Source of the DNA: Lachnospiraceae bacterium
Lineage (GTDB): Bacteria; Bacillota; Clostridia; Lachnospirales; Lachnospiraceae
Length of the DNA: 39,120 bases
NCBI GenBank assembly: GCA_024693925.1
Contig: JAILKH010000144.1
Location: 1 to 39,120 of the forward strand
Reading direction: 5' to 3'
Shown: positions 35,293 to 39,120 of the stretch, in pieces
How the letters are laid out: the number at the start of each line of letters is the position of its first letter
Position numbering within the stretch: position 1 is the stretch's first letter
Translations under genes and position numbers: made by a program
The notes under the pieces: model-generated
What the model saw: the letters and a program-made list of their open reading frames with translations, nothing else
Database searches by the model: none
Told to the model about the DNA's origin: nothing

Positions 35293-36761
35293 TTTATTGT
35301 ATTTCCATATTCAAAACATTTACTCAAAAAGTTTTTATATGCGGTAATATTTCCGAATGCATATATATGAAGAAATCCGGCCGCCAGCATATCCTTGTGA
35401 AACATACATCTGTATGAGCCTCCGGCCATAGGTTTTTTTGCTTCAAAATCATTTCCGTTTAAGGAACAATCATAATAATGAAACTCATGGGCGAGTAATT
35501 CCGTTCCCTTTTCTCCATATATACCATCTTCCAATGCCGTAGCTTCAACGTATCCAAACCTGACAGACTTACCGGTATTATAAGCAATCCCATCAATCAC
35601 TCCGCACATCCGGTATTCATTATCTTCCAAATCCCTCAATGATCTTTGTAAATATAAAAAACCTCCGCATTCCGCGATTACCGGAAGGCCTTTCTTCAGA
35701 GCCTCATTAACTGACCTTAACATTGATGTGTTCTTTGATAATTTTTCTGCATAATACTCCGGATATCCGCCATATAATATCAAACCATTTATATCATCCG
35801 GTAATCTTTCATCCCTCACAGGAGAAAAATATACTATATTAACGCCCATTTGTTTAATAAAACGGATATTATCATCGTAATAAAAGGAAAACGCTTCATC
35901 TCTGGCAATTGCAACGGTAATTTTTTCCCCTTTTTGATTTTTATCCTCAAAATAGTTCACTGTCTCCAATATTGGCTCCGGAATCTTCGTATCCGGCGCC
36001 GGTGCGTCCCCGGCTATTTTTAATATTTCCTTAAGCTCCACCGATTCAGCCAGCTTTTCGGCAGTAATATCTATCTTTAGATTTATTCTATCTATTTCTT
36101 CTGCCTGCATCAATCCCAAATGTCTTGACGGAATCTCTATATCCTTAATTTTAGGCAGATATCCTATAACCTTTATATTACAATAATTTTCAACAACTGA
36201 TTTTATTCTTTCATAATAAGCCGGTGAAACCTTATTTAATATTATTGCTTTAATATTATTGTCTTTTTTATAATCCAGTATCCCTTTGATCATGGAAGAT
36301 AAAGTAACGCTTACCGCTGAAGCATCGGCAACAAGAACCACCGGCGATCTTGTGACCCTTGCGATTTCATATGTGCTGGCCCGCTCGCTTATTCCGGCTA
36401 AGCCGTCATAATAACCCATCACACCTTCTATCAGCGTAAGATCGGAGTCGTCACAAAAGGCAGAAAGAAGATAATTAAGGATTTCAGGTTCACAAAAATA
36501 TGAATCAAGATTTCCGGTTTCCACAGATAAAGCCTTTCTGTGAAAAGAAGGATCCACATAATCGGGACCGCATTTACGGGCAGATACCTTTAATCCTTTT
36601 TTTATAAAAGCCCTTATAAGTCCCATGGTAATCATTGTTTTACCACAGCCACTCTTCATCCCGGCAATCACCACTCTGTTGATCTTCTTTTTTTGATTAT
36701 ATGTGTCCGTCAAAGCCTTATTTTCTTTTATTTTTATTATATGATTATATGTATCCGCCAA
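35289..36761 (-). CDS. cbiA: cobyrinate a,c-diamide synthase CbiA/CobB
   Basis: This ATP-dependent amidotransferase makes cobyrinic acid a,c-diamide in cobalamin synthesis. The P-loop IAGMKSGCGKTMIT and KCGPDYVDPSFH mark the N-terminal domain. A class I glutamine amidotransferase domain with nucleophile Cys in AECGGFLYLQ and a C-terminal HEFHYYDC follows. The start is uncertain: there is no ATG before residue ~35. The frame can begin at TTG 36761, at a later TTG, or at a GTG just before VIAGMKSG. The first ~25 residues (ADTYNHIIKIKENKALTDTYN) are translated tandem repeat, so they may be untranslated in reality. Confidence 0.93.
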   Translation of the reverse strand: MADTYNHIIKIKENKALTDTYNQKKKINRVVIAGMKSGCGKTMITMGLIRAFIKKGLKVSARKCGPDYVDPSFHRKALSVETGNLDSYFCEPEILNYLLSAFCDDSDLTLIEGVMGYYDGLAGISERASTYEIARVTRSPVVLVADASAVSVTLSSMIKGILDYKKDNNIKAIILNKVSPAYYERIKSVVENYCNIKVIGYLPKIKDIEIPSRHLGLMQAEEIDRINLKIDITAEKLAESVELKEILKIAGDAPAPDTKIPEPILETVNYFEDKNQKGEKITVAIARDEAFSFYYDDNIRFIKQMGVNIVYFSPVRDERLPDDINGLILYGGYPEYYAEKLSKNTSMLRSVNEALKKGLPVIAECGGFLYLQRSLRDLEDNEYRMCGVIDGIAYNTGKSVRFGYVEATALEDGIYGEKGTELLAHEFHYYDCSLNGNDFEAKKPMAGGSYRCMFHKDMLAAGFLHIYAFGNITAYKNFLSKCFEYGNTIK

Positions 36762-36880
36762 AGCCTTATCTTCTTTATTTTTATTATTATATTATATATA
36801 TCCGTCAAAGCCTTATCTTCTGTAATTTAATTTTTGGGACATTTGTATCCGTCAAAACTTTATCTTCTTTAATTTTTTGA
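36704..36880. repeat. decayed ~47-bp tandem repeat at the start of cbiA
   Basis: Four imperfect copies begin with TCCGTCAAAGCCTTATCTTC-like sequence at 36706, 36754, 36801 and 36848 (spacing 48, 47 and 47). The rest of each unit is A/T-rich with runs such as TTTTTATTAT. The first two lie inside the possible cbiA coding frame, the last two upstream of it. The array fills most of the 168-base gap to the DUF445 gene. Confidence 0.9.
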
Positions 36881-37882: not shown

Positions 37883-38021
37883 TAAATTGCTTTTTGACGA
37901 CAGTGGAATTTTACCCCGGAAAAACCGGGTATAACGGAATATATCGCTGACCATCCGCAGTCCCGGCAAATATACATCTTCATATTTAATTTATTTATAA
38001 TGATCCTTGACTTTTTTATTC

Positions 38022-38057
38022 GTAAAACAAAAGAACTACCACTTACGTGATAGTCCT
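38022..38057 (-). terminator. Rho-independent terminator of the small RNA
   Basis: On the minus strand AGGACUAUCAC (38047-38057) and GUGGUAGUUCU (38032-38042) form an 11-bp stem with two G-U pairs and a GUAA tetraloop. UUUGUUUU follows. Confidence 0.87.
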
Positions 38058-38160
38058 CTTATAGCAAGATTTCTTAGGGGGTAAGAAAGCCTTGCCATAT
38101 TGTGGGGAAATCTTGGGTCTTGACAAGGAGATGAAACCACAAGATTTTGTAACAAGACAC
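38022..38160 (-). ncRNA. candidate small RNA with C-rich hairpin loops
   Basis: This ~135-base minus-strand unit has its own promoter (38165-38193) and terminator (38022-38057) and no reading frame of note. Hairpin 1 pairs AAAUCUUG (38140-38147) with CAAGAUUU (38108-38115), extended by GGUUU/AGACC; its 13-base loop reads CAUCUCCUUGUCA. A single-stranded UUUCCCCACA follows. Hairpin 2 (38064-38095) pairs GCAAG/CUUGC and UUUCUUA/UAAGAAA around a loop of five C. C-rich loops like these, complementary to GGAG-type ribosome binding sites, are known in trans-acting small RNAs of Gram-positive bacteria, such as the Rsa RNAs. No known family or riboswitch was recognised, and the regulatory role is inference. 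Confidence 0.72.
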
Positions 38161-38164
38161 CATT

Positions 38165-38193
38165 ATATTACCATATTTAGTATTATTTATCAA
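38165..38193 (-). promoter_or_regulatory. promoter of the candidate small RNA
   Basis: On the minus strand, -35 TTGATA (38188-38193) and -10 TAATAT (38165-38170) are exactly 17 bases apart. The -35 overlaps the stop codon of the upstream helix-turn-helix gene. The predicted start is near 38157-38160. Confidence 0.7.
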
Positions 38194-38864
38194 GACTTTT
38201 TCCTTCTTTTTGCATCCATTATTAATTTATCCAAATAACTCTCGTAATCTTCGCTTGATATATATTCATCATAGTAATCCTGCGCACTTCTTCTGTGTCC
38301 CTCATATATATTACTAATTGTATTAGCAGTTCCCATCTCTTTATCTTTATCTTTATTATTTTCAATGTTCTTATTTATATTATCCGATCTGCTCTTATCC
38401 TTCTTAGGAACATCTACCTCTTTGTTTGCTTTTGCATTTTTAGCATATATATTTGGTTTTGTTTTTATATAATTCAGATCTGATTCCAATCTTGTGTATT
38501 TTCCCAGATCCAGTAAATGGTAATATTTTATCAACATCAAGTTTATATAAGTTGGGGTTTTATTTTTCCCACAGTACCAGTCTTCAACTGTTCTTATGGG
38601 AATACAGAAAGTATGTGATAATTCGCTTTTTTTAACCTCCGATCTGTCAGCTATCTCCTTAAAGGTCATCTTTCTGGCTTTATATATATTCCTCAACATA
38701 TAAATGTAATCATCAAGATCCAGACCTATACTCTCAAATTTAAAAATTTTAACCGAAGCTGCCATATCTTTTATGAATTCATCTTCATCTGTATATACAT
38801 CTGCCGTCATCCACAATTTATGAAACATTTTATCAGTCAGTATTTTCAATCTCGTTTTTTTCAA
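38190..38864 (-). CDS. helix-turn-helix domain protein of unknown function
   Basis: This 224-residue protein has a HTH core at ~residues 60-115 (MTFKEIADRSEVKKSELSHT, then IPIRTVEDWYCGKNKTPTYI). The second half, IPxRTxxxWxxGKxxPxxY, is common in small Clostridia regulators that begin with a HTH of the Cro/C1 or XRE kind. A Lys/Asn/Asp-rich linker (~140-180) and a helical end follow. The start is a TTG (38864) with a weak AGGTAAGAG site; an internal ATG at codon 13 has none. The gene ends on the small RNA promoter. Its targets are unknown. Confidence 0.7.
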   Translation of the reverse strand: MKKTRLKILTDKMFHKLWMTADVYTDEDEFIKDMAASVKIFKFESIGLDLDDYIYMLRNIYKARKMTFKEIADRSEVKKSELSHTFCIPIRTVEDWYCGKNKTPTYINLMLIKYYHLLDLGKYTRLESDLNYIKTKPNIYAKNAKANKEVDVPKKDKSRSDNINKNIENNKDKDKEMGTANTISNIYEGHRRSAQDYYDEYISSEDYESYLDKLIMDAKRRKKS

Positions 38865-39120
38865 TTTCTCTTACCTGCCTTATTTTATTTCTTTTTTATA
38901 TCATTATTCATAATCATTTGATATTATATATCTGTGTATGATCCTTTTATTAACCCGTGAAACATTATGTTATCCGGATTATCAATTTTAATACCACGTA
39001 TTACGTGGTATTGTTTTTTATAAATCAATGAATTTATGCGTTGTCTATCAATTTTAATATTTTTTTATTTTCAATATCGTTTCACATTATGTAAATCTTT
39101 ATCTCTTAAAGCCACGTAAT
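38865..39120. other. AT-rich upstream region with a palindrome and dispersed repeats
   Basis: No gene is visible here. It holds a perfect 21-base palindrome ATACCACGTA-T-TACGTGGTAT (38991-39011), a 14-base direct repeat TATCAATTTTAATA (38980-38993 and 39046-39059), two ACATTATGT copies (at ~38962 and ~39085), and an inverted GTGAAAC/GTTTCAC pair. The last bases, CCACGTAAT, repeat half of the palindrome, and the window ends there. A promoter TTAATA-N17-TATATA is possible but weak. It is probably the control region of the helix-turn-helix gene. Confidence 0.55.

Follow-up and report, generated by a model that had tools for sequence, protein, structure and literature searches.

A candidate C-rich small RNA with an anti-Shine-Dalgarno-like loop, found in three gene neighbourhoods within one Lachnospiraceae genus

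Introduction

The closest described systems are bacterial small RNAs (sRNAs) which expose C-rich segments. IsrR of Staphylococcus has a Rho-independent terminator and three conserved C-rich regions, of which two occupy hairpin loops and the third is a single strand flanking the second stem; its C-rich regions were modelled as pairing with the 5' regions and Shine-Dalgarno (SD) sequences of its targets (PMC9410917). RoxS/RsaE and FsrA, from Bacillus and Staphylococcus, are described as binding G-rich SD sequences through single-stranded C-rich regions (PMC8216469, PMC10433868). In Agrobacterium, an accessible C-rich loop is assigned to PmaR and an anti-SD region to AbcR1 (PMC6234868).

Here we analyse a locus in a 39,120-nucleotide stretch of DNA from a Lachnospiraceae bacterium (assembly GCA_024693925.1, contig JAILKH010000144.1), hereafter the window, for which a sequence-only reading had proposed a C-rich sRNA gene. 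The feature is real in the sequence and the outline first drawn of it was correct; its interpretation is partly supported. Like IsrR, the Lachnospiraceae RNA has two C-rich loops and a C-rich strand adjoining the second stem, but IsrR also has a third hairpin and is controlled by Fur/iron (PMC9410917). By eye, no Fur box was recognised at the promoter of the Lachnospiraceae sRNA, and its loop 1 is a near copy of the anti-SD and not a plain C run. With RoxS and FsrA it shares C-rich regions suited to G-rich SD sequences, and it differs from them in having no Rfam match at the gathering score and in being found in one genus only. It likewise resembles PmaR and AbcR1 in its C-rich loop and anti-SD-like segment, although these belong to another phylum and PmaR is described as mostly positive and acting away from ribosome-binding sites (PMC6234868). 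As far as anatomy tells, the best reading is that the RNA would work like IsrR, RoxS and FsrA, a likeness of anatomy that need not reflect common descent.

Results

A compact promoter-to-terminator unit

Read along the minus strand from 38193 to 38022, the sequence forms a compact unit in which a promoter is followed by hairpin 1, a linker, hairpin 2 and a terminator (Table 1). All the elements named in the sequence-only reading for a stand-alone unit are present where it had placed them, and the unit recurs in four other genomes. The unit carries promoter and intrinsic-terminator signals of its own, one of the marks of the C-rich, SD-pairing sRNA class.

Table 1 Features of the candidate sRNA locus in the window.
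Feature	Position	Strand	Description
Promoter	38165-38193	minus	-35 TTGATA 38193-38188; 17-base spacer ending in TGG; -10 TAATAT 38170-38165
Predicted sRNA	38022-38158	minus	Fold and homologous unit in 5 of 37 genus genomes; ends inferred
Hairpin 1	38108-38147	minus	8+5 pairs; anti-SD-like loop CAUCUCCUUGUCA at 38133-38121
Linker CCCCACAAUA	38098-38107	minus	Second C-rich segment; CCCC unpaired
Hairpin 2	38060-38099	minus	Loop CCCCC 38081-38077; stem predicted in all five copies
Terminator hairpin	38030-38059	minus	13 pairs; loop GUAA, followed by UGUUUU

The promoter match in the window by itself carries little weight, as a scan of 2.1 kb listed 12 promoter-like sites where 12.2 were expected from shuffles. 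It gains credibility because the same layout, TTG(A/C)NN-N17-TA(A/C)(A/T)AT with TGG ahead of the -10, can be read by eye in all five known copies of the unit. The stop codon TGA (38192-38190) of the upstream open reading frame (38864-38190) falls within the -35 hexamer. We place the 5' end of the RNA near 38158, 7 bases past the -10, and expect it to stop within the U-run, around 38029-38022, giving a predicted size of about 130-137 bases; the segment running from about 38158 to hairpin 1 is GUCUUGUUAC.

The predicted fold of 38193-38022 has an energy of -50.2 kcal/mol (z -5.7), a value reached by none of 200 dinucleotide shuffles. Folded alone, the five RNAs gave z scores from -7.3 to -4.9, with equally low energies in 0 of 200 shuffles for four of them and in 1 of 200 for the fifth. 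Hairpin 1 had been described as a 13-bp stem with a given loop, and 13 pairs (8+5, with one bulge) do enclose that 13-base loop; the minimum-energy fold adds one isolated pair inside the loop and pairs the 5' UUGU with ACAA of the linker, the latter in three of the five copies. The proposed C-rich linker and second hairpin with a loop of five C were both found in the sequence and in the predicted fold. The CCCCAC of the linker is invariant, with an unpaired probability of 0.70-0.90 over the five copies, and that of the five-C loop is 1.00; overall, the C-rich segments are predicted to be single-stranded and are conserved in the five copies, which is another mark of the class.

The terminator has the GUAA loop and the U-run ascribed to it, although its stem counts 13 pairs in the minimum-energy fold and not 11. 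A simple terminator scan did not list this hairpin, probably because part of the U-run sits inside the stem. A second fold, in which GUCUUG near the 5' end would pair with CAAGAC in loop 1, could form in the window copy alone; the other four copies lack CAAGAC, and we rejected this alternative.

The unit was found in a few genomes of one genus

No Rfam family matched anywhere in the window at the gathering score, so that the match to a known riboswitch which could have overturned the sRNA proposal was not seen. At E values up to 5, positions 37900-38300 gave idnO at 21.6 bits (cut-off 100, opposite strand) and STnc410 at 12.5 bits (cut-off 50). A DNA search of 61 genomes located the unit in five, all within the genus of the window. 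A covariance model built from these five copies (R1), the check suggested together with the original proposal, retrieved the unit in the same five of 37 genus genomes, as a single copy in each and with the promoter as part of it.

DNA and R1 searches of 397 sampled genomes of the family gave nothing convincing. The DNA search returned two matches, the window itself and a partial one in G154 (L007), which covers 37 bases of the query and was judged unrelated. At E values up to 0.1, R1 returned 13 matches, window included, and three of the other 12 fell below 0.001 (4.6e-5, 5.3e-4 and 7.6e-4). Nine of the twelve were examined as loci (L159-L167). In four alignments of these weak matches it is mainly the terminator hairpin that agrees, and at five of the nine loci both strands match, like a two-way terminator; we treat these family loci as chance or as a shared terminator shape. 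A pattern scan over one genome per species found 11 stretches, four in Lachnospiraceae contigs, which were taken as the four other copies (L002-L005) and one of which has goat rumen as its stated source, and seven in other phyla. The latter were put down to chance, a single one of them scoring with R1 (7.8 bits, E 5.2). No viral contig contained the 20-base core pattern. Among the titles listed in literature searches, none dealt with a C-rich sRNA in Lachnospiraceae, some concerning other bacteria or being general.

In a recA tree of 30 of the 37 genus genomes, the five carriers cluster with seven non-carriers in a group of 12 that the tree does not resolve. The carrier label requires three changes on this tree, and 11 of 500 shuffles are equally low. 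We chose recA because the glutamine synthetase gene has differing surroundings among carriers. In one carrier, G009, two copies of recA were seen, which may point to a mixed assembly. Loss, transfer or incomplete assemblies may each account for the pattern of carriers and non-carriers.

A conserved block in three gene neighbourhoods

The five copies are distributed over three different neighbourhoods. The window has the RNA between a 224-aa open reading frame lacking any Pfam match and a DUF445 gene; cobB and cobS follow farther down. In G032 and G009 (L002, L005) the RNA is flanked by an ECF-transporter-S-like gene and cobS, and in G021 and G036 (L003, L004) by a cation diffusion facilitator gene and a glutamine-synthetase-like gene. 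Homology across the three contexts is limited to a block of about 170 bases comprising promoter, RNA and terminator, and ends there. RNA identity between contexts is 84-89% (86-87% to the window by BLAST), compared with recA identities of 79-83% among carriers and of 94% between G021 and G036.

Within the same neighbourhood, promoter windows are 93-98% identical and flanking coding DNA mostly 78-98%. In 60-column windows of the G032/G009 comparison, the RNA is 95-98% and the promoter window 93% identical, whereas the intergenic DNA just after the RNA drops to 32-43%. For G021/G036 the RNA reaches 97-100% and the intergenic DNA before it 23-35%, mostly gaps; the intergenic DNA after it is also kept, and the RNA barely stands out there because that DNA stays 83-97% identical. 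These identities imply that the unit has been selected as a unit, recently exchanged, or both. Over its length the RNA of G032 and G009 is 96.9% identical and recA is 80%, a contrast which hints that the conservation may owe something to recent exchange, subject to the caution that G009 has a second recA copy.

Several other features of these regions were recorded. The 224-aa open reading frame (38190-38864) has no NCBIfam match either, matches phrog_25567 (unknown function) at 1.4e-10 and looks helix-turn-helix-like by eye in its middle part; at E values up to 0.001 it has matches in 10 of the 37 genus genomes, and apart from the window the strong ones are confined to G026 and G023. On the plus strand, positions 38989-39013 form a palindromic terminator-like hairpin (TAATACCACGTATTACGTGGTATTG) followed by a T-run, with no long plus-strand open reading frame just ahead. 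A tandem repeat at 36694-36877 (period 47, 3.9 copies, 80% matches) coincides with the 5' end of cobB on the minus strand; its last two copies read in the open CobB frame (KEDKALADTYN..., KENKALTDTYN...), and the CobB start call is doubtful since the listed TTG (36761) sits inside the earlier of these two in-frame repeats. The ECF-transporter-S-like proteins (L002 894-1481, L005 1667-2176) are encoded directly ahead of the RNA and cobS. The one in L002 scores under the cut-offs of TIGR04002 and the folT family; judging from position, these proteins could be cobalamin-precursor transporters.

Hairpin 2 changes in sequence and keeps its loop of C

The five copies represent four distinct sequences. 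There is little or no variation in the stem of hairpin 1 and its loop core CUCCUUGU, in CCCCAC, in the basal half of hairpin 2 or in the stem of the terminator. The terminator loop is freely variable, and the distal half of hairpin 2 differs by lineage, a stem around four or five C being predicted in each. This is the variation expected of an sRNA in which the pairing segments would be constrained in sequence and the scaffold in shape.

The sequence-only reading had asked for compensatory base changes in the two stems, and this evidence is sparse: one of 46 predicted pairs, in hairpin 2, is double-changed, but two copies break that same pair and the covariation term is unfavourable (+0.56). 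In the MAFFT alignment, G021/G036 lose several of the distal pairs of hairpin 2. Aligning these two copies by hand with a bulged A restores most of them and yields a second double change, which depends on gap placement; the lowest hairpin 2 pair stays disrupted in G032 as well as in G021/G036. Variation in hairpin 1 and in the stem of the terminator is too slight for a covariation test.

Loop 1 prefers start regions

Loop 1 reads CACCUCCUUGU in four of the five copies and CAUCUCCUUGU in the window copy, and is anti-SD-like. Its UCACCUCCUU, present in four of the five copies, resembles the 3' tail of 16S rRNA; no 16S gene was found in the window assembly. Open reading frames and starts were called by script and sampled in the window genome (G000, 339), G009 (227) and G021 (83). 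GGAG or GAGG precedes 70%, 67% and 58% of these starts, respectively, which bears out the claim that GGAG-type sites abound, with the proportions inflated by the use of SD strength in choosing starts.

It had been proposed that all three C-rich segments could pair with such sites, and computed pairing energies bear this out for loop 1. In the three genomes loop 1 prefers start regions over mid-coding windows by a mean of 2.3-3.0 kcal/mol (p 2.4e-21, 6.4e-18 and 1.7e-7) and outperforms all 20 shuffles of its own sequence in every genome. The linker and loop 2 also favour start regions over coding DNA, but not beyond composition-matched shuffles, which were equally low in 7-10 of 20 cases for the linker and 4-11 of 20 for loop 2 (10 of 20 for each in the window genome). 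The 5' tail had no start-region preference in the three genomes. When the complement of loop 1 was searched with at most one mismatch in the five genomes, 19 sites were found, five of them the sRNA gene itself, and the reversed control gave 20.

In G036, G021 and G009 the one-mismatch search met a CobD/HisC-like aminotransferase gene whose start carries a sequence nearly complementary to loop 1, and ACAAGGAG also stands ahead of this gene in G032, though not in the window genome nor in the three non-carriers inspected. What made the gene attractive as a target is the proximity of cobalamin genes to the RNA in three of the five copies. Nevertheless, we rejected it as an outstanding target and keep it as a lead. 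The energy of the site is equalled or bettered by 116 of 339, 60 of 227 and 23 of 83 sampled genes, and ACAAGGAG lies ahead of 2 of 339, 2 of 227 and 1 of 83 sampled starts, the last two counts possibly including the gene itself. Moreover, the protein scores 281.6 bits, under the CobD cut-off of 290.55, and its neighbours presumably encode indolepyruvate ferredoxin oxidoreductase subunits. Upstream of the CobD/HisC-like open reading frame in L103 we also observed TTCCCCACTATAT, in the same sense and identical to part of the G021/G036 sRNA linker; it differs from the window genome's own linker copy and may be there by chance.

Discussion

The locus is probably a stand-alone gene for a trans-acting C-rich sRNA of about 130-137 bases which would occlude SD sequences, best taken as a narrowly distributed member of the known functional class of C-rich, SD-pairing sRNAs. 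The computation establishes the anatomy of the unit, its conservation together with the promoter, the persistence of hairpin 2 despite change and the preference of loop 1 for start regions. Transcription, the targets, and the sign and signal of regulation are what we infer. RNA polymerase would start just behind whichever gene is upstream and stop at the RNA's own terminator, and the two hairpins would hold three C-rich segments open. Loop 1, through CUCCUUG, would first contact a group of mRNAs at their GGAG-type SD sequences; on some targets the pairing would be extended by the CCCC linker and the CCCCC loop, and ribosome binding would be blocked in trans by occlusion of the SD.

A cis-acting leader or attenuator, whose terminator decides whether the downstream gene is reached, is an unlikely explanation, even though the downstream gene lies on the same strand in all five copies (DUF445 in the window, cobS in L002 and L005, glutamine synthetase in L003 and L004) and the DNA linking RNA and gene is kept at 83-97% in L003/L004. 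The downstream gene is not the same in the three contexts, G032 and G009 no longer resemble each other in the spacer leading to it, Rfam shows no riboswitch, and in L003/L004 a promoter-like TTGACA site and a second hairpin, seen by eye, intervene before glutamine synthetase. We give still less credence to a terminator with structured upstream sequence serving the preceding gene, whose stable 3' UTR would be a by-product devoid of regulatory pairing. The unit does come after a same-strand gene in all five copies, with the -35 on the stop codon or one base past it in the window, L002 and L005; however, the upstream gene also changes among the three contexts, and the promoter and loops, which a terminator does not need, belong to the conserved parts. 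A small protein gene is very improbable: a 20-codon frame from an ATG at the end of the linker is open, by eye, in the window, G032 and G009 copies, but no SD precedes this ATG (CCCCACAAUAUGG), the frame is shifted in G021/G036 and the changes in hairpin 2 alter codons (both by eye), so we rejected the short-peptide reading.

Nearly identical stretches of 170 bases in three neighbourhoods, and an RNA shared at 96.9% by G032 and G009 despite 80% recA identity, are what part of a mobile element or a transposon end could leave behind. This origin seems improbable to us, given a single copy in each of the five genomes, no terminal repeats visible by eye and no viral contig with the 20-base core pattern. 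Somewhat less remote, though still doubtful, is that a cassette of promoter, RNA and terminator that relocates or passes between species settles behind host genes, its 16S-tail-like loop acting as a broad competitor of the ribosome for strong SDs and not as a regulator of a few mRNAs.

The trans-acting sRNA gene remains our preferred reading. Its most unusual features are the three differing neighbourhoods and the near copy of the anti-SD in loop 1. The design with three C-rich regions has no Rfam match, and in other respects this would be an ordinary kind of regulator. The locus provides a well-bounded candidate sRNA, with natural variants, in a gut/rumen-type group from which, to our knowledge, few sRNAs have been studied.
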